Shown one piece after another: positions 4,300 to 41,728 of a stretch of DNA of 64,000 nt. The stretch spans positions 1 to 64,000 of the forward strand of contig NZ_NHOY01000105.1 of assembly GCF_002252755.1 (NCBI RefSeq). The letters are read 5' to 3'. This DNA is from Halorubrum sp. Hd13. GTDB lineage: Archaea > Halobacteriota > Halobacteria > Halobacteriales > Haloferacaceae. Below the pieces are notes generated by a model that worked only from the letters and a program-made list of their open reading frames with translations, did not search any database and was not told where the DNA came from. Made by a program: the position numbers and the translations under genes. The stretch's first letter is position 1; every line of letters starts with the position of its first letter.

Positions 4300-5208
4300 A
4301 TGATCGACAGGCTGCTCGGGCGCGCCGAGCTGAAAGAGAAGATCGCGGAGTTAGCGGAGGAGAAGCGCCACCTCGAACGCCGCGCCGAGGCCGAGGAGGA
4401 GCGCCGGTCCGACGCGGTCGCCGACCGCCAGCGCGCCGAGGAGCGCGTCAACGATCTCGAACACCGGATCGAGTCGCTGGAGGAGCGACTGAGTCGGACG
4501 GAGGGCGAGGAGGCGTCCGTCGAGTTCCGGCGCGTGAGCGACGCCCGCGGCGACCGCCTGACCGACATCCTCGACCGGTTTCGGGCGGTCGAGAGCGACG
4601 ACCCGGAGGGGCTGCTCACGGCCTTCGTCCCGAGCGACGACGCGGTGCCGACGAGCGTCTCCGACTGGTTCGGTGACCGAGCCCGACTCGTCCGACGGGC
4701 CGCGCCCGCGGTCGTCCTCGCCGACGACTCGGGCGCCGTGAGCGCGGCGATCGCGCCCCCGATCGCGCCCGAGCCCTTCGACCGGTGGGACGACGCCTTC
4801 CGACTGGCGGAGACGTGGTTCCGCCCGACCGGCCGGTTCGCCTTCGCCGTGGTCCGCTCCGACACGTTCGCGATGGGCACGTACGAGGGGACCGAGCGCG
4901 TCGCCTTCGAGGGGTTCACCTCCGACGTGAAGGAGGCCCACTCGAAGGGCGGCTTCTCGCAGGGGCGCTTCGAGCGCCGCCGCGAGGGACAGATCGCCGA
5001 CCACCTGAAGAAGGCGAGCCGCGAGCTGGCCGCCGTCGCCGACGCGGACGACGTCGACCGCGTGATCCTCGTCGGCGAGCGGAGCGTGCTCGGCGAGGTG
5101 CGCGACCACGCCGACGTCACCGACGTCTCGGACGCGACCGGGAAGCCGAAGGCCGCCCTCGAAGACGCCTTCCGCGACTTCTGGACCGCCCGGATCCACG
5201 GGATCTGA
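4300..5208 (+). CDS. Archaeal Vms1/ANKZF1-type peptidyl-tRNA hydrolase (ribosome rescue)
   Basis: 302 residues. Residues 1-70 form a charged coiled coil (LKEKIAELAEEKRHLERR and on). The rest is an eRF1-like VLRF1 domain with the segment HSKGGFSQGRFERR; Q221 in GGFSQGR is in the place of the catalytic Gln of the Vms1 release loop. Family members cleave nascent chains from tRNA on stalled large ribosomal subunits. Length and the basic patch after the loop (RRREGQIADHLKKA) fit the archaeal type. A TATA-like CTTTTAGG lies near 4268, about 30 nt ahead. Catalytic activity has not been shown for this protein; the call is by motif. Confidence 0.82.
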   Translation: MIDRLLGRAELKEKIAELAEEKRHLERRAEAEEERRSDAVADRQRAEERVNDLEHRIESLEERLSRTEGEEASVEFRRVSDARGDRLTDILDRFRAVESDDPEGLLTAFVPSDDAVPTSVSDWFGDRARLVRRAAPAVVLADDSGAVSAAIAPPIAPEPFDRWDDAFRLAETWFRPTGRFAFAVVRSDTFAMGTYEGTERVAFEGFTSDVKEAHSKGGFSQGRFERRREGQIADHLKKASRELAAVADADDVDRVILVGERSVLGEVRDHADVTDVSDATGKPKAALEDAFRDFWTARIHGI

Positions 5209-5425
5209 CGCGGTCCGTGGACGCGGACGCGAGTCCGCCGCGACCGGTGGTATGCGGATTATAACTATGTCTCTCGAAGGCGAATTATGGCGTGGAGGGA
5301 CGACACACGCTCCCTCTCCCCCCCTCGTCGATCGGCTTTTTTATGTCTCGCGTCCGGGCTCGGGAGCGACGCGTGTTCCCGCCGAGAGGAACAGGCATTT
5401 GTCGGCGTCGCACGGTGGTGGATCC

Positions 5426-7606
5426 ATGACACGGTCGGGGTCGGATCCCGCGGTTCGGTCTGTTCTCGCCGTCCTCCTCGTCGCGATGCTGCTCGCGGCC
5501 GCGCTGCCGGCCGCCGGGAGCGCGGCGGTCGGGGAGCGTGCGGGCGCTGCCGAGCACGTCTCCCACGGATCGGTCGGTCCCGCGTCGCTCGACGGGGGCG
5601 AGAGCGTCTCGTCCGCCGCCGACCGAGCCGCTCGGACGGCTCAGGCCGACGACTCCGACGCGATCCGCCTGCGAAACGAGCTGTTCGCGACCGACGAACG
5701 CGGAACGGTCGGGGTCACGACGCGGGCGGAGATCCCCGACCGCGTCACGGAGCTTCGAGTGACACTCCTCAGCGCGAACGACGCCGCGGTCGAGGCCGAC
5801 GGCTTCGAGCCGGCCGACGACGCCGGCGCCGACGGATCGACGTGGGCGTGGGACGGGGAGACGGCGACCCCCTCGCTCACCTACGCGATGGACGCGAACG
5901 ACACCGTCGAGGAGGCGGGCCCGCTCGGCGCCCGCGGCTCCTACCGGTTCGTCGACGCGGGCGAGTGGGCGCTGGTCCGGACGCCGCGGACGAGAGCGAG
6001 CTGGTCGTACACCGGCCGGTACGACGGACAGGTCCGGCTGACGCGCGAGAACGCCGTCGACGGCGAGGGAGTCGCATCGCAGGCGATGGCGTTCCTCGGC
6101 CCCTACGAGGAGCACGTCCGCGAGGCCGGCGGCCAGCGCTACCGGCTGATCGTCCCCGCGTCGGCCGACCTCGAAGCGCCTCCCGAGGAGGTGTTCGGCG
6201 TCTTCGAGTCGGTGTCGACCGCGCTGCAGGTCGGCGCGCGCGACGAGACGGTGTTCGCGGTGGCGGCGCCCACCGGCGACGTCGGGTGGGGCGTCCGCGG
6301 GCTCCAGGTCGGCGACGCCGACTTGTGGGTCCGGGACGCGGAGCCGGCGGGTACCGCGACCGACGTCTGGACCCACGAGTACGTCCACACGCGGCAGGCG
6401 TACCGGACCGACGCGAGCGGCCGGTGGATCACCGAGGCGAGCGCGACCTACTACGCCGCGCTGTTCGCGCTCGACCGCGGCGCCGCCGACTTCGAGGAGT
6501 TCGAGCGGACGCTGGCGCGCGGCGAGCGCGACCCCGACGCCTCCGCGGTGCTCGCCGACCCCGGAACGTGGGAGCGGAACCCGGACTACACGAAGGGGGC
6601 GCTCGTCGCGGGCGAGATCGACCGTCGGCTCCGCGTCGCGACGGACGGGAGCGCCTCGCTGGCGACGGTCCTCCGCGAGCTGAACGCCGCTGACGGACCG
6701 GTCACCAACGAGGATATCCTCGACGCGATCGAGGCGGCCGCGGCCGAGGGGGCCGACGCCGAGACCGCGGCGGCGGTCCGCGCCGAGGCCGAGCGCCTGA
6801 CGACCACGCGGGCGACGGCGGAGACGTGGGACCGCGGGGCCCACGCCGAGGCGTTCGGCGAGACGCCGGCGCAGGTCGGCTACGCCCTCGCCGACGACGG
6901 CGTCCGGGCGACCGGCGAGTACCGCGACCGTCCCGTCGCCCGCGGCCCCGTGGAACTCGTCGCGGGCGAGACGCTCGCGGCGGCGGTCGACGTCGCCAAC
7001 ACCGGCGGCGTCGCGGGCGAGTACGACCTCGCGCTGACCGTCGACGGCGACGCGGTCGCGACGCGGACCGGCACGGTCGACGCGGGCGCGGAGACCACGG
7101 TGCGCTTCGAGCGCGCCTTCGCGGAGCCCGGCGAACACGCGGTCCGGGTCGCCGGCGAGCGGCTGACGGTCGTCGTCTCGGAGCCCGCGCCGCCGTCGGT
7201 TCGCGGCGTCTCGACCGCCGCAGAGCGCGTGACCGCCGGCGACCCGGTCCGCGTCACCGCGACCGTCGGAAACGACGCGAGGCTCCCCGCGGGCGCCGAC
7301 GTCGAGTTCCGCGTCGACGGGGAGACGGTCGCCACCGCGCCCGTCAGACTCGATTCCGGCGACCAAACGACCGTCGCTCGGAACGTCACGCTCGGGGAGT
7401 CGGGAGGCACCCGCGTGATCGGCGGCGATCGGGAAGCGAACGTGAGCGTCGTCGGCCCGGTCGACGGGGCGTCGACGACCGTCACCGTCGAGCGGAACGG
7501 CCCCGTCGCCGGCGCGACCGACGACGGCGTCCCCGGGTTCGGTCCCGTCGCCGCCGTGCTCGCGCTGATCGTCGCCGCCGTGACGTTCGGCCGGCGCCGC
7601 CCCTGA
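5426..7606 (+). CDS. Secreted HExxH metallopeptidase-like protein with CARDB-type repeats and a PGF-CTERM anchor
   Basis: 726 residues from the ATG at 5426. Residues 1-32 are a Sec signal peptide (hydrophobic VLAVLLVAMLLAAALPAAG). The middle carries HEYVHTRQAY (H317-H321) and, downstream, WITEASATYYAAL, the third-ligand region of gluzincin peptidases. Two immunoglobulin-like CARDB-type stretches follow (VANTGGVAGEYDLALTVDG and GNDARLPAGADVEFRVDG). The C-terminus GVPGFGPVAAVLALIV plus RRR is a PGF-CTERM sorting signal, known to be processed by archaeosortase A and lipid-anchored. So the enzyme should sit outside the cell on the S-layer side. Substrate unknown. An upstream ATG at 5252 would bury the signal peptide and was rejected. 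Confidence 0.8.
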   Translation: MTRSGSDPAVRSVLAVLLVAMLLAAALPAAGSAAVGERAGAAEHVSHGSVGPASLDGGESVSSAADRAARTAQADDSDAIRLRNELFATDERGTVGVTTRAEIPDRVTELRVTLLSANDAAVEADGFEPADDAGADGSTWAWDGETATPSLTYAMDANDTVEEAGPLGARGSYRFVDAGEWALVRTPRTRASWSYTGRYDGQVRLTRENAVDGEGVASQAMAFLGPYEEHVREAGGQRYRLIVPASADLEAPPEEVFGVFESVSTALQVGARDETVFAVAAPTGDVGWGVRGLQVGDADLWVRDAEPAGTATDVWTHEYVHTRQAYRTDASGRWITEASATYYAALFALDRGAADFEEFERTLARGERDPDASAVLADPGTWERNPDYTKGALVAGEIDRRLRVATDGSASLATVLRELNAADGPVTNEDILDAIEAAAAEGADAETAAAVRAEAERLTTTRATAETWDRGAHAEAFGETPAQVGYALADDGVRATGEYRDRPVARGPVELVAGETLAAAVDVANTGGVAGEYDLALTVDGDAVATRTGTVDAGAETTVRFERAFAEPGEHAVRVAGERLTVVVSEPAPPSVRGVSTAAERVTAGDPVRVTATVGNDARLPAGADVEFRVDGETVATAPVRLDSGDQTTVARNVTLGESGGTRVIGGDREANVSVVGPVDGASTTVTVERNGPVAGATDDGVPGFGPVAAVLALIVAAVTFGRRRP

Positions 7607-36416: not shown

Positions 36417-36490
36417 GCCAGGGGAGCATGGGCGGTTCATGCACTCGACTTGTAATCGAGACTTCCGGGGTTCAAATCCCTGCCCTGGCT
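36417..36490 (+). tRNA. tRNA-Thr (anticodon TGT)
   Basis: 74 nt. Acceptor GCCAGGG/CCCTGGC is perfect with discriminator T. D arm GCAT-GGGCGGTTC-ATGC, anticodon stem CTCGA/TCGAG with loop CTTGTAA and anticodon TGT, T arm CGGGG-TTCAAAT-CCCTG. CCA not encoded. The DNA right after it changes character and holds a decayed transposase, so this tRNA probably marks the left end of an integrated island. A direct repeat of its 3' end on the right was not found by eye. Confidence 0.95.
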
Positions 36491-36674
36491 TGCTCGCTCT
36501 TCCGTAAACTGGTGTTACCAGAAAAATTAGTGCCTCTATTCGGGCAGAATCGGATATACAAACGAACCGCCCCGCTTTCGGCCAGAGGCCAGCGGAACTC
36601 GCGGAACATGGCGTAATAGAATTTCGGCCCGAGAGGCTCGACGCTATTATCGAGCGGCGTCTCAAGAAGATCTG

Positions 36675-37453
36675 GTGAGAACGCTCTTTTTCACCTGCGG
36701 CGCAGAGAGCCTCCACGCCCGCGACGGCTCCGACCGTATCTGGTGTGGCCGCTGTGACTGGAAAGCCACGTCCACCCGCCTGACGATCATTCTACGATTC
36801 GGAACTCATCCTCGGTGAGCTCCTCAACGCCTTCATTCTCCACGCTAACACACTGCTAAACATAACCCGGGCGGCCCTCCTCTCACCGTGTTACACGACA
36901 CTTCACGACCAACTCAGCGAGTTCGAAACGCGTTCTGTCGGGGATTTCCGACTGTCTGGGAAATGCGCTCCCAGACAGTCGATGGGCCAACACAGGTCAA
37001 AGAAACACACCAGGTGTGTGCCGGATTTGAATACAAAGACCAGCCGCGGTCGAGTCCATGCCGCGGCGGGTCGTCAGAGGGCGGACGCACCCGCTGGACA
37101 GAGGATCAGGGAGAGGACTGACGCTCGTCGCGGCAGGCCGCGACGTGCTTCGGGTGGTGTCAGCTCAGGAGGGAAGCGACCACGAGGGCGATCTCGGGCC
37201 AGTTATTGAGGAGGTCGACGACTTCTCTCAACTGCTGGGAGAGGTCCGGACCGACGGACTGCCGGCCTCCCGAGGCATGGAGCATGAAGTCTGCGCCAAC
37301 GCCGTCGCGCCCGATCACTTCGTGACCGGGCGGATCGACCGGCTGGTCGAGGAGTCGGTCGCGACGGGCGCGTGCGACACCCGCGAAGCGGCCCGCGAGG
37401 CATCGGGTGGGGCGTCACGTCGGGTCGGCCCGCGACACCGTGCCTGCTCTTGA
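36675..37453 (+). pseudogene. Decayed transposase (zinc-ribbon/DDE, IS1595-like)
   Basis: Transposase-like sequence in three frames. Frame 1 from 36675 has FFTCGAESLHARDGSDRIWC then GRCDWKAT, the N-terminal zinc ribbon. A shifted frame continues FYDSELILGELLNAFILHAN, then TTLHDQLSEFETR. A third segment, VDGPTQVKETHQVCAGFEYK, is the DDE start with the usual GPxxVxET region, followed after another shift by LTLVAAGRDVLRVVSAQEGS and GPVIEEVDDFSQLLGEV. Stops and at least two frameshifts show it is dead. The whole 36491-37661 stretch has no intact gene. Family name is by pattern only. Confidence 0.6.
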
Positions 37454-37661
37454 CACTTGTATCACGCCGTGTACACTGAAGACGTCGTGAACGGTGTAGC
37501 TCCCGAAACATGATACTGGCCCAACAAAAATCCGTAGACACCCTCATCTGACGGGGAGACCGTGGGGGACGGTCGGGTGGGGGCACCGACCGAACAGTCG
37601 CTCGGTTCGTCCCGACCGGCGCCCGACCGAGCCCGAACCAGCGATCCGTCGATACCTGACA

Positions 37662-39416
37662 ATGGCAACACCGTCAGATCACGACCACGAACACGACAAC
37701 GATGGCACAGGCCGTTGGGACTTCCCGCCGCTCTACCCGTCCCCCGTTGAGGAACCGCCAGTTGGGGAAATCCCGGACGAGGGGCTCCCCGAGGATCCAA
37801 CGGATCACGAGGCGTTCATGGACTGGGTCGAGAGCCAGTGTGACACGACGAACGATAAACAACCCGTCGAACAGTACGACGGGACGCTGGGCGTCTCGAA
37901 GTCGTTCGTCGACAACCACGAGTCACCCGTCGGCCTCATCCAATGGAACGACGACCTTGACCAGCGGTATTCGGACCCCGGCAGGTTCGCGGGCGATCGT
38001 TGGTGCACCGGGACGCTGGTCGCCGACGATCTGTTTCTGACGGCGGGGCACTGTTTCGACTCCGCCCCGGGCGTGCCGGTGAAAGGTGGCCAGCGGATCC
38101 GTCCCCACGAAATCGCGACGAACATGCACGTCGACTTCAATTACCAAGTCGACCCGTCGGGGAACCTCAGGCAGGAACAGCAGTTCGACATCGTCGAGCT
38201 CGTCGAACGCGACAGGGGCGGACTCGACTACGCAGTGGTCAGGCTCTCGGGGACGCCCGGCAACCGGTTCGGGTCGGCGACGCTTGCTACCTCGCCCGTC
38301 CAGCAGGGCGATTCCCTCTGCATTATCCAGCATCCAAGGGGTCGCCCGAAGAAGATCGAAGCCGGGACGGCGACGCACGTCCATACGAGTTCGACCTCGG
38401 GACAGCTTGGGGAGGACTACTTCGGGTACGGTGACATCGACACGCTCCGCGGCAGTTCCGGGTCGGGGGTCCTCCGGGAATCCGACGGCGCCATCGTCGG
38501 CGTCCACACCAACGGCGGCTGCCGCGCCGGACGCGGGGGTCACAACCACGGAGTGAAGATCGGTCCGATTCTCAACGAGTCGGACGTTCTTACCGCGTTC
38601 TCATTGAAGAACCCGATCGAGGGGAAGATTCCCCTCAGCGAAAAGAACTTCCCATCCGAGAAGATGAAATTCACCGACGAGGGGGTCGGCGGGAACAAAT
38701 TCCTCAACGATCCGCCGGTAGGGACCGGCGGCCGAGGGACGGTCAAACACGTCGACGACCGAAAGGCGACCGGGCTGGACAAACCGCCCGGCGACCCCGC
38801 CGGCCAAGGTGGGGGTGTCGGTGGCGACGTTCCCGGGGCTGGTGGCGGTCTTGAGTACACCCCAACGCGACCGTACATCCCAGAAAAAAACAAGTTCACC
38901 GACGAACCGGGCGGTACGCTCCCATTCCGCGACACGCCGATCGGCGGCGGCGACGGCGGCACCTCCCCGTACATCGACCGTCGAAAGGCGACCGGGCTAG
39001 ACAAGCAGTTCGACGACATGGGGCTGGGACAGATGCCGTTCAGCCCGATTCAGCAACAGGGGCAGAGGCAACCGCAGGGATACGGATACGGCTTCGGGCA
39101 CGCCGGAGGGAGCAAAGCCGGCGGCGGAGAGCGTCCGTTCGTCCTCCAGACGCCACATCACGTGGGCCGAGGTTCCGGCGCCGACCTGCAGGGGACGGGA
39201 CAGGGCCAGGGTCAGGGTCAACCCCACGGCCACGGCGGGACCGACCGGACGGCTGGCGGCGGAGGTGGGGAGCTGCAGTCAACCTACGAACAGCTCCTGA
39301 GCGACATGCAGCAGTTTCTCCAGCAACAACAGACGCAACTGCAGGCCATCAACGACCAGTACCGTCAGTTGGCCGCCGAGTACCAGCAATTCCTCTCGCA
39401 GGGGTCCCAGCGGTGA
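37662..39416 (+). CDS. Trypsin-like serine protease with repeated Thr/Asp/Lys-rich C-terminal motifs; candidate graspetide-type substrate
   Basis: 584 residues, no signal peptide (MATPSDHDHEHDNDG...). Residues 85-310 are an S1-type protease: WCTGTLVADDLFLTAGHCF gives H130, GLDYAVVRL gives D189, RGSSGSGVL gives S266, so the triad is intact. Two near-identical repeats follow: 332-374 and 407-448, sharing EK-x-KFTDE, (N/R)D-x-P(V/I)G and RKATGLDK. Gly-rich linkers come next (GTGQGQGQGQPHGHGG), then a Gln-rich helix to the end (YEQLLSDMQQFLQQQQTQLQ). A GTG-started ATP-grasp ligase gene follows by 124 nt. I infer the repeats are cross-linking sites; this is not shown by sequence. Promoter not clear; AT-rich ACAAAAATCC near 37525. 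Confidence 0.8.
   Translation: MATPSDHDHEHDNDGTGRWDFPPLYPSPVEEPPVGEIPDEGLPEDPTDHEAFMDWVESQCDTTNDKQPVEQYDGTLGVSKSFVDNHESPVGLIQWNDDLDQRYSDPGRFAGDRWCTGTLVADDLFLTAGHCFDSAPGVPVKGGQRIRPHEIATNMHVDFNYQVDPSGNLRQEQQFDIVELVERDRGGLDYAVVRLSGTPGNRFGSATLATSPVQQGDSLCIIQHPRGRPKKIEAGTATHVHTSSTSGQLGEDYFGYGDIDTLRGSSGSGVLRESDGAIVGVHTNGGCRAGRGGHNHGVKIGPILNESDVLTAFSLKNPIEGKIPLSEKNFPSEKMKFTDEGVGGNKFLNDPPVGTGGRGTVKHVDDRKATGLDKPPGDPAGQGGGVGGDVPGAGGGLEYTPTRPYIPEKNKFTDEPGGTLPFRDTPIGGGDGGTSPYIDRRKATGLDKQFDDMGLGQMPFSPIQQQGQRQPQGYGYGFGHAGGSKAGGGERPFVLQTPHHVGRGSGADLQGTGQGQGQGQPHGHGGTDRTAGGGGGELQSTYEQLLSDMQQFLQQQQTQLQAINDQYRQLAAEYQQFLSQGSQR
38655..38783 (+). repeat. Protease C-terminal repeat unit 1
   Basis: Encodes residues 332-374 (SEKMKFTDEGVGG...RKATGLDK). 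Compared with unit 2, about half of positions are identical, concentrated in KFTDE and RKATGLDK. Confidence 0.8.
38880..39005 (+). repeat. Protease C-terminal repeat unit 2
   Basis: Encodes residues 407-448 (PEKNKFTDEPGG...RKATGLDK). It is separated from unit 1 by a Gly-rich linker of about 30 residues. Confidence 0.8.
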
Positions 39417-39540
39417 CGCCCGCTCGCAACCGCCCCGACCGACGGGTCGCGTCATCGGTCGGTGACGCCGGGCGGGCGCGGCGGAACGGCCCGGCCCCGA
39501 CCGGAGACGATCGAGGAGTGCCAATCCGGAGGGCTCTCCC

Positions 39541-40533
39541 GTGATCCTGGTCGTCTCCGAGGCCGACGATGACCACGCGCGGGCGGTCCTGGACCGGCTC
39601 GAGCGCCGCGGCGTCGCCGCCAGGCTGCTGGACACGTCGGCGTTCCCGCAGCGACTGTCCCTGTCGATGACGTACGCCCGGACGGACCCGGACGGGACCG
39701 GGGCCGACGGCGATGACGAGCCGGCGCTGCACGCCCGACTGGGCGACCTCGAGTTGGCCGACTGTGGCGCGGTCTGGTGGCGCCGTCCCCAACCGTTCGA
39801 CCTGTCGCCGGAACTCACTGGCAACGTCGACCGGTCGTTCGCCTACCGGGAGTGTCAGGCCGCGATCGGCGGCCTCTGGCGGACGCTCGACGCGGAATGG
39901 ATGAACCACCCGACCCACGACGAGGAGGCCGCCCGCAAGCCCTACCAGCTACGGGTCGCCCAGCAGATCGGGTTCGAAATTCCCGAGACCTGCATCACCA
40001 ACGACCCGGCCCGGGCTCAGGCGTTCGTCGACGCACACGGCGCCTCGAAGACCATGTACAAGGCGTTCACCGGAACCGAAGCCGCCTGGCGGGAGACACG
40101 CGTCCTCCGGGACGGCGAGACGGATGTCATCGCCGCCGTGCGGCACGCGCCGGTCATCTTCCAGGAGTACGTCCCTGCGGGCGTCGACCTCCGGATCACG
40201 GTCGTTGACGGCGAGGTGTTTCCGGCGGAGATCCACTCTCAGGAGACGGCCTACCCCGTCGACTACCGCATGAACGTCGATCGGGCCCGGGTCGAACCCG
40301 CCGACCTGCCCGACGACATCCGCGACCGGCTCCGGGAGTACGTCGACCGGCTGGGGCTGGTGTACGGGGCGATCGACATGCGACGGCGACCGGACGGGCA
40401 GCACGTCTTCCTCGAGATCAACCCGTCGGGACAGTGGCTGTTCATGGAGGAGCGTACCGGTCAGCCCATCACCGAGACTGTCGCCCGGGTCCTCGCGGAG
40501 GCAGACGCGCAGACACCGCCCGCCCGCCACTGA
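39541..40533 (+). CDS. ATP-grasp peptide ligase of the MvdC/MvdD (microviridin/graspetide) type
   Basis: 330 residues from a GTG at 39541 with CGGAGG 9-14 nt ahead. The order matches ATP-grasp ribosomal peptide maturases: a pre-ATP-grasp domain (ILVVSEADDDHARAVLDRLE), the WWRRPQPFDL segment, EEAARKPYQLRVAQQIGFEIP, the hinge FQEYVPAGVDLRITVVDGEV (E209) and the metal site FLEINPSGQW (E292, N294). Such enzymes join Thr/Ser/Lys side chains to Asp/Glu carboxylates of a partner peptide using ATP. RimK or other ATP-grasp ligases are less likely given the WWRRP and SGQW motifs. It is directly downstream of the repeat-bearing protease, the obvious candidate substrate. Confidence 0.82.
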   Translation: MILVVSEADDDHARAVLDRLERRGVAARLLDTSAFPQRLSLSMTYARTDPDGTGADGDDEPALHARLGDLELADCGAVWWRRPQPFDLSPELTGNVDRSFAYRECQAAIGGLWRTLDAEWMNHPTHDEEAARKPYQLRVAQQIGFEIPETCITNDPARAQAFVDAHGASKTMYKAFTGTEAAWRETRVLRDGETDVIAAVRHAPVIFQEYVPAGVDLRITVVDGEVFPAEIHSQETAYPVDYRMNVDRARVEPADLPDDIRDRLREYVDRLGLVYGAIDMRRRPDGQHVFLEINPSGQWLFMEERTGQPITETVARVLAEADAQTPPARH

Positions 40534-40642
40534 TGGAATCGACTTTTCGGGACCGGTCCGATCCGGTCCGGTCGAGGCCTGGCGACGAGGGAGCGCGCTC
40601 CGGATCAGAGCGTCCCTCGTCAGTGGCCCGCCCGGTGGAACG

Positions 40643-41431
40643 TCAGGCGCACACCTCCTCCGGGGCCAGCGGCGTCGCCTCCCGCAGGCAGGTCTCGAAG
40701 ATGTCGATGGCCCACGCATAGACCGCTTCGTCGTCGGTGACCAGCGCACCTCTGAGCACGTTCCGGTCGTCGGTCAGATCGATCCTGACCGTGTCGTCGA
40801 CGATCCAGACCGCGATCGGGACCTCCTCGCAGACGTACAAGTCAGCGTTCGCGTGGGCGAGCAGTTCGTTGACTCGTTGGGCCGTCGGGGGATGACTTCT
40901 GGCGGCGTCGACGACCGCCGGCGTAACGACGAGTTCCAGTCGCGTACCGTCAACGACGACATCCCGAAGGTTCTCGACGATCCGTGGGGCCGACGCACAG
41001 GTAACGGCTCGGATCCGTTCGCCGGCGCGGTGGAAGGCCGCGAGCTCCCGGAGCAGGACGGTCGCGTCGCTCCCGTCCACCAAGACGACCTCCGCGTTCC
41101 GCAGTCGCCGGACATCGAACGTCACGACCTCGCTTGAGAGCCACTGGAGCGGTTCCCGGAGACGGCGTTCGGCCTCGAAGTCGCCCACTAGGTCTTTGAA
41201 CCGTTCACAGACCCAGCAGCCGAGCGGCGTCGTCGTGTACTCCCGTTCCGACCGCTCGATCCAGCCTCGGCCTTCGAGTTCCCGGAGAATGCGTGCGACG
41301 GTCACGCGGGAGGCGTCGACCGACTCGACGAGTTCGCGACGGCCGCGGGGCGACTCCTGGAGCAACTCTAGGATCGCGACGCGGTTCGCGGAGTTGGCCA
41401 GATACGCGATCTCGTCGAGCGCCGCCTCCAT
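40643..41431 (-). CDS. Winged-helix transcriptional regulator
   Basis: 262 residues from the ATG at 41431. The winged helix is N-terminal: LANSANRVAILELLQESPRG then VTVARILRELEGRGWIERS and YTTTPLG as the wing. The C-terminal part (VVLVDGSDATVLLREL, then VTPAVVDAARSH, VPIAVWIVDDTVRIDLTDD) is a haloarchaeal ligand-sensing half like those of TrmB/IclR-type regulators. A minus-strand TATA box (TTTATACG) is centred 27 nt before the ATG, favouring it over a GTG at 41446. It is convergent with the ATP-grasp gene (109 nt apart) and may control the cassette; that is inference. Confidence 0.85.
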   Translation of the reverse strand: MEAALDEIAYLANSANRVAILELLQESPRGRRELVESVDASRVTVARILRELEGRGWIERSEREYTTTPLGCWVCERFKDLVGDFEAERRLREPLQWLSSEVVTFDVRRLRNAEVVLVDGSDATVLLRELAAFHRAGERIRAVTCASAPRIVENLRDVVVDGTRLELVVTPAVVDAARSHPPTAQRVNELLAHANADLYVCEEVPIAVWIVDDTVRIDLTDDRNVLRGALVTDDEAVYAWAIDIFETCLREATPLAPEEVCA

Positions 41432-41454
41432 GTGTAACTGTACCACGATTTTTC

Positions 41455-41462
41455 GTATAAAT
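41455..41462 (-). promoter_or_regulatory. TATA box of the winged-helix regulator
   Basis: TTTATACG on the minus strand, centred 27 nt ahead of the ATG at 41431, implies a leaderless transcript and decides the start. Confidence 0.65.
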
Positions 41463-41728
41463 CTATGGACCTCACATAATCTAAATAATTACGCGTTCGT
41501 CGGCGGGAATCGTCGTGCACCCGGAGCACCGACCGTGACTCATCGGCCTGTCGCTCCGTGGGATGTCCTCGGCGGTCCGGAGTCGATCGGGGGAACCGGC
41601 GACCGCGGACAGCGACGTGGACGTCGCGGCCGCCACGGTCGCTACGATCGTCGGCCGGGACGTGCCGCGCGATCCGATCCTCGCTCGGCGGGCCGAGTCG
41701 ATGCGCCGATCGCTTCGCGGGACGGTGA

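Follow-up and report, generated by a model that had tools for sequence, protein, structure and literature searches.

A haloarchaeal protease that very probably carries its own graspetide-like precursor as a C-terminal tail

The graspetide class rests on the linkages that its ligases make, an N-terminal leader and a small precursor being merely usual features. The two genes described here, which lie in a 64,000-nucleotide stretch of Halorubrum sp. Hd13 (contig NZ_NHOY01000105.1, positions 1 to 64,000; hereafter the window), depart from the usual layout of an N-terminal leader on a small dedicated precursor. Microviridin (MdnA/MdnB/MdnC) resembles the window system in its ligase fold (5ig9 being the nearest structure), its PF-type leader and the Thr/Lys-to-Asp/Glu bonds of the kind predicted here, but it is an interlocked three-bond cage made by two ligases from a small free precursor with an N-terminal leader. 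Several cores within one chain, as predicted in the window, are found in AMdnA and are modified by AMdnC (PMC5934393).

Corallotide (group 15, Corallococcus) is similar in having a large precursor with a long repeat tail, several short Lys-to-Asp rings and one ATP-grasp synthetase, and the text of PMC13097080 describes this single synthetase as proven to make repeated KxxxD rings in the large precursor. As presented in the same text, corallotide differs in the spacing of its rings (KxxxD, against K/T-x4-D in the window), in its precursor, a protein of its own whose N-terminal domain is helical, where that of the window would be fused to a protease, in its oxygenase partner and in being reported from Corallococcus only. 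The fuscimiditide system ThfA-ThfB shares an RPF-type recognition motif with the window, and in engineered settings ThfB tolerates a leader at the C-terminal side and can cyclise proteins (PMC13003496, PMC12291112); RPFG has been proposed as the sequence key to recognition by this synthetase, which still works at about half the rate when the leader is moved C-terminal to the core (PMC13003496). Unlike the window system, fuscimiditide is a small peptide with a natural N-terminal leader, its C-terminal leader being man-made, and it additionally has an O-methyltransferase and an aspartimide (PMC13003496, PMC12291112).

Graspetide-type ligases beside unrelated peptidase families, as in the window, have also been described. 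In the text of Makarova et al. 2022 (PMC8939145), branches 7 and 8 lie beside peptidases 'of several unrelated families' with no precursors detected, and the peptidases are proposed to supply peptides by cleaving other proteins, or the precursor to be encoded elsewhere. The text of Carter et al. 2026 (PMC13097080) reports 'diverse families of neighboring proteases' for group 32, read as maturation or resistance. Compared by these descriptions, the peptidases there differ from that of the window in being cast as maturation, peptide-supplying or resistance enzymes, and the idea of a protease as precursor is absent from the texts of both papers, supplements aside. In the present work we describe two genes that are highly likely to form a self-contained graspetide-like system, in which the precursor makes up the C-terminal part of an active protease.

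The protease and ligase genes of the window

The first open reading frame (37662..39416, + strand; 584 aa) encodes a trypsin-like protease with a candidate graspetide-like precursor tail fused to it, and has relatives in loci L033 and L053. Its catalytic domain (residues 115-281; 38004..38504, + strand) matches Trypsin_2 (E=3e-18, 67.4 bits), and the catalytic triad is intact, with H130 in TAGHC, D189 in GGLDYA and S266 in GSSGSG each aligning with the same residue in two bacterial relatives; domain and triad together place the protein among the S1 (trypsin-like) peptidases. Judged by eye, the protease has no signal peptide, its N-terminus (MATPSDHDHEHDND...) being hydrophilic. The AlphaFold model, built on a three-sequence alignment, is poor overall (pLDDT 35).

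A gap of 124 nt (39417..39540, + strand) separates the protease gene from that of a graspetide-type ATP-grasp macrocyclase (39541..40533, + strand; 330 aa, GTG start), and each of the two genes is present in a single copy in the genome. The ligase scores 263 bits against TIGR04187, under the curated cut-off of 350, and 184 and 163 bits against the MvdC and MvdD equivalog profiles, both under their cut-offs of 425 and 475 bits; its MvdD pre-ATP-grasp domain scores over the cut-off. It is a macrocyclase of the MvdC/MvdD/TIGR04187 ATP-grasp type, but no MvdC or MvdD equivalog. The AF2 model (pLDDT 84.8) is closest, among PDB structures, to the complex of MdnC with its precursor (5ig9, E=6.7e-29), followed by AMdnB, CdnC, PruB and PsnB, with RimK further down the ranking, and the nearest PDB relatives are graspetide macrocyclases both by sequence and by fold. 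Residues K133, K174, R218, D279, E292 and N294 are unchanged across 10 relatives, and we take these to be the ATP/Mg-binding positions by analogy with RimK. A previous reading of the DNA from the sequence alone (the sequence-only reading) had proposed an intact trypsin-like protease without a signal peptide, followed by a ligase of the microviridin/graspetide class, and these assignments hold.

The tail and its pairing with the ligase

The part of the tail predicted from spacing counts to be the core (residues 316-490; 38607..39131, + strand) holds candidate ring sites of the form (K/T)-x4-(D/E); its seven K/T-x4-D pairs compare with 2.0 expected, a number reached in none of 1000 shuffles. Within the core lie repeat 1 (residues 333-374; 38658..38783, + strand), with candidate rings KMKFTD, TVKHVD and KATGLD, and repeat 2 (residues 408-448; 38883..39005, + strand), with candidate rings KNKFTD, TLPFRD, TSPYID and KATGLD. 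The sequence-only reading had seen here two near-identical Thr/Asp/Glu/Lys-rich repeats; the repeats do exist, with an alignment score of 108 where shuffles reached at most 56, but they are only 57% identical (24 of 42 residues). A repeat search at the DNA level did not detect them.

Immediately C-terminal to the core is a leader-like recognition motif, RPFVLQTPHH (39132..39161, + strand), which resembles both the graspetide leader motif published as Phhx(1,2)h in the text of PMC8939145 and the RPFG of ThfB (PMC13003496). Within the window's genus, an ordinary gene of 73 aa whose product starts MRPFLLQFA stands ahead of a more distant ligase (L015). A degenerate DNA search found this motif only once in the 3.8 Mb genome, inside the protease, indicating that a separate precursor with a leader of the RPFVLQTPHH form is absent from the genome. 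No small open reading frame with a plausible PF-type leader was found in the 31-47 kb region of the window, where the single small match was dismissed as an antisense shadow. These results agree with the earlier impression that a separate small precursor gene is missing. Towards the end of the protein, a C-terminal helix (residues 536-580; 39267..39401, + strand) is predicted by AF2 in the otherwise low-confidence model.

Ten loci with a ligase of the same clade were found beyond the window (in a haloarchaeon, Actinomycetota and Burkholderiaceae), making 11 in all; the ligase tree supports a single exclusive clade only incompletely. The immediate upstream neighbour of the ligase is a trypsin in three loci, a subtilase in one, an M43 metalloprotease in three, an astacin-like protease in three and a non-protease in one. 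The closest haloarchaeal ligase (L014, 55% identity to that of the window) has a subtilase (S8) directly upstream and no trypsin; the folds of this subtilase and of the window trypsin are unrelated, and both proteins carry K/T/D/E-rich repeats, the motif (SRPFALETPHH in L014, ERPFVLQTPHH in the window) and a similar C-terminal segment. The Burkholderia stagnalis ligase (51% identity) lies downstream of an M43 metalloprotease that bears the same tail, with APFVLSTPHH as its motif, and the C-terminal ends of the S8 and M43 proteins resemble that of the window. An M43 protease also lies upstream of the ligase in a Paraburkholderia locus and a trypsin in a Cellulomonas locus, and five further genomes reached via the Cellulomonas relative have one trypsin, three astacin-like proteases and one M43 protease. 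The astacin-like proteins bear the motifs HEIGHxxGLWHEQSR and SIMHY, their family (M12A-like) being assigned by eye. In L050 (Burkholderiaceae) the tail protein has a non-protease domain, and the protease is therefore not obligatory to the tail/ligase system.

The tail protein is the immediate upstream neighbour of the ligase in all 11 loci, and in 10 of these it is a protease, as the pairing of the two proteins proposed from the sequence alone would have it; within the clade we saw neither a usual separation of the ligase from the protease nor a ligase retained without the repeats. The protease and ligase genes overlap at ATGA in L014 and L026. Barring antisense shadows and chance neighbours in a few loci, the ligase and the tail protein are the only genes common to the 11 loci. 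Position in the published ligase tree, and a YscW homologue or a truncated second ATP-grasp in the locus, would be the marks of branches 7 and 8. Five trypsin-domain relatives located on plasmids (from Agarilytica, Geminocystis, two Sinorhizobium and Shinella) lack the tail, either stopping after the domain or bearing other domains, and no ligase of this clade was found within 5 kb of them.

The spacing of candidate donors and acceptors was examined by counting Thr or Lys followed by Asp or Glu at offsets 1-12 and comparing the counts with shuffles, in five tails first and then in 11. At offset 5 the 11 tails contain 108 pairs against 27.8 expected (z=17.7), which is the repeated donor (Ser/Thr/Lys)-acceptor (Asp/Glu) pattern of graspetide precursors. 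The next-highest value, z=3.5 at offset 11, is likely an echo of the distance between repeats. As a control, the catalytic parts of these 11 proteins gave 31 pairs at offset 5 against 34.4 expected, and on this comparison a chance origin of the x4 spacing was rejected. Candidate rings include TLASTD, TIPTVD, TIATAD and TIAWTD in the Burkholderia tail, TPLAVD, TLLGQD and TIKAVD in Cellulomonas, KHPIID, KHPVID and KHPITD in the subtilase, and KKFRDD, KTPFTD and KQPWTD, or KERLPE and KELQPE, in the astacin-like tails. The donor is mostly Thr in the Burkholderia, Paraburkholderia and Cellulomonas rings, with Lys taking its place in the tails of the S8 and astacin-like proteins, and this interchange of Thr and Lys at one spacing is as predicted for a lactone/lactam-forming ligase. 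The acceptor is Glu in many or all cases in L054 and L056, and L063 has a looser x4 spacing with several TxxKFRDD units.

Close to the motif, a double unit of the form [TS]x4Dx2Kx4DK occurs in the window (twice), L014, L026, L032 and L063, spanning S1, S8 and M43 tails and both domains of life; none was found in the other open reading frames (624,078 residues scanned). In each of the 11 proteins the PF-type motif itself stands ahead of the C-terminal segment, mostly as PF[VA]LxT[PG]HH, with the S8, M43 and two astacin-like tails having the versions nearest to that of the window and two loci having degenerate ones (PFVQAGPF in L033, PFSLAA in L050). Comparison at the sequence level thus establishes the gene pairing, the motif, the residue spacing and the exchange of protease folds (S1, S8, M43, M12A-like) while the tail and the ligase stay.

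Possible roles of the ringed tail

It is very likely that the protease itself serves as the graspetide precursor and that its natural 'leader' lies C-terminal to the core; this position of the motif, within a fusion to a protease, is the reason why we claim a variant architecture. That the ligase acts on the tail of the protease itself was already part of the sequence-only reading; with the tail encoded directly upstream in every locus and kept through the exchange of folds, its candidacy as the ligase substrate is strongly supported by these comparisons. The leader-like motif and its C-terminal position, the fixed x4 spacing and the bacterial occurrences had escaped the sequence-only reading. 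The ligase would dock on RPFVLQTPHH, phosphorylate Asp/Glu side chains using ATP and join each activated residue to the Lys or Thr five residues earlier. The product would be a row of small lactam/lactone rings, with about 7-9 candidates in the window and 18 Da lost for each, leaving a protease whose tail carries the rings as a chain. Ring formation and the type of linkage are inferred from homology. For the role of the rings we can offer only tentative suggestions, ranking self-processing about level with cis-regulation, followed by a stiff digestion-resistant tail. We put at roughly even the chance that this is an exchangeable graspetide module, shared by archaea and bacteria and built into unrelated protease folds with a natural C-terminal leader, whose ATP-dependent rings control, or are released by, their own protease.

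The tail may possibly be a built-in inhibitor or switch, as the sequence-only reading suggested, folding back once ringed so that the protease stays inactive until the tail is removed or altered. Microviridins and plesiocin are described as strong serine protease inhibitors in the texts of PMC13097080 and PMC8939145, and since the proteases have intact active sites, no evident signal peptides and no shared immunity gene, they should need restraint within the cell. However, like tails are found on serine and metallo-proteases of unrelated mechanism, and ring interiors differ within one protease class (L033 against L053, L026 against L063) whereas conservation from class to class is seen in the rings closest to the motif. 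Conservation of the tail thus tracks the ligase, not the active site, and the differing rings within one class argue mildly against a tight active-site inhibitor. A self-processing precursor is also a reading to be held tentatively: here the protease would cleave the tail fused to it, and the small peptides released with their rings would be the product. This reading would account for any protease fold sufficing, with the tail and ligase kept and the protease exchanged, as well as for no other processing gene being present in the loci, and precursors with multiple cores are known (PMC5934393); yet the loci are without a transporter, no conserved cleavage site was found in them and L050 is without a protease.

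We consider it rather unlikely, but worth weighing, that the rings form a stiff stalk, resistant to digestion, by which the protease is protected, assembled or positioned. The C-terminal helix predicted for the window protein would suit such a stalk, as would the precedent of corallotide, which has five Lys-Asp rings in a large precursor, shows some properties like those of collagen and, according to the text of PMC13097080, showed no activity in the assays run, but no partner, anchor or export signal was identified. It is improbable that the protease matures a precursor encoded elsewhere, or gives resistance to it, and that the tail is an irrelevant low-complexity sequence. This is the reading given in the texts of PMC8939145 for branches 7 and 8 and of PMC13097080 for group 32, but against it stand the single leader-like motif of the genome, which lies within the protease, the restriction of the x4 spacing to the tails, the presence of the tail on unrelated folds and the tail-less trypsin relatives with no ligase nearby. 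More doubtful still, and to our mind very improbable, is that the ligase attaches amino acids to the tail without ring closure, in the manner of RimK-like glutamylation: RimK is indeed the next structural relative of the ligase, but MdnC, MdnB, AMdnB, CdnC, PruB and PsnB outrank it in sequence and fold, and the fixed donor-acceptor spacing suits rings and does not suit glutamylation.

With the protease as its own precursor, the chemistry would be that of known graspetides and the architecture of the precursor new as far as the texts on branches 7 and 8 and group 32 go, and the missing precursor would have a simple, testable answer for this ligase clade. If this is true, the window provides a C-terminal graspetide leader that occurs in nature and a natural instance of a full-size enzyme as the target of a graspetide ligase; to our knowledge, both have so far existed only as engineering (PMC13003496, PMC12291112). 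It would also provide an example from archaea, where graspetides are barely described, and one in which an enzyme and its RiPP are one polypeptide. Small rings of fixed Lys/Thr-x4-Asp spacing with interchangeable Thr and Lys may in addition serve protein stapling.

Distribution and genomic setting

The ligase searches were aimed at close relatives of the window ligase and covered 1,990 genomes in total. The combination of protease tail and ligase is rare, occurring in 1 of 52 genomes of the window's genus, 1 of 18 of the genus of L014 and about 2 of 392 of the order. A profile search of genome contigs with a two-sequence ligase alignment gave no matches, and one with a three-sequence alignment found the Paraburkholderia and Cellulomonas loci. 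No ligase was found in the viral contigs searched, and a plasmid search with the L053 and L055 ligases returned the Burkholderia record only.

Several more distant ligases were set aside. The haloarchaeal ATP-grasps of L016-L025 belong to a different group and, where examined, adjoin an HExxH membrane protein, and the ligases of L027-L031, L051, L052, L057, L064 and L065 have precursors that are ordinary, small or not visible, and are without a tail protease. The window locus itself adjoins a tRNA-Thr gene and lies within a stretch of lower GC, both as expected for an acquired island.

Genomic setting of the protease–ligase pair

The trypsin-like protease and its graspetide-type ATP-grasp ligase lie just downstream of a tRNA-Thr gene (36417-36490), and GC content falls to 0.61-0.70 over 36500-41500, compared with about 0.72 in the flanking window sequence. 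Given this adjoining tRNA gene and lowered GC, the two genes resemble an island gained by transfer, although neither an integrase nor att repeats turned up, the att search having used a guessed tRNA end that differs from the real tRNA-Thr. Convergent with the ligase gene is a minus-strand HVO_A0261/FilR1-type winged-helix regulator (40643-41446), which could either be unrelated to the locus or control it.

Other haloarchaeal ATP-grasp loci

In the window's genus (L015:7310-8493), a 73-aa gene starting MRPFLLQFA is followed by a 36%-identical ligase and then by a membrane protein gene; the small gene and ligase are a candidate for an ordinary haloarchaeal graspetide system. The ATP-grasps of L016, L023, L024, L038 and further haloarchaeal loci form a separate, deep clade, possibly representing a peptide-modifying system so far unrecognised. 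At the three loci read (L016, L023, L024), the next gene after the ATP-grasp encodes a membrane protein of ~325 aa that contains HEGGH, HEAGH or HEASH; the membrane protein of L016 gave no Pfam match.

Variation in gene neighbourhoods

A small, apparently beta-rich N-terminal domain replaces the protease in the ligase neighbours of L050 (Burkholderiaceae; 5038-5772, minus strand), L064 and L065. The L050 protein has the (Thr/Lys)-x4-(Asp/Glu) repeat tail and a leader-like PFSL motif; in those of L064 and L065 the C-terminus is a short stretch rich in Ser and Asp (SDDGxxCDSLD). Both Burkholderiaceae M43 proteases are preceded by a small conserved gene (L026:4066-4401; L032:4013-4399) that could encode an inhibitor or chaperone. 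The occurrence of purL a few kb from the system in a haloarchaeon (L014:12222-14429) and Cellulomonas (L033:58-3573) is probably coincidental. Among the plasmid-borne, tail-less relatives of the trypsin domain (L067-L071), a neighbourhood of S8 peptidases or cell-wall hydrolases recurs, with the former adjoining the gene in Agarilytica, Sinorhizobium and Shinella and the latter on a Geminocystis plasmid.
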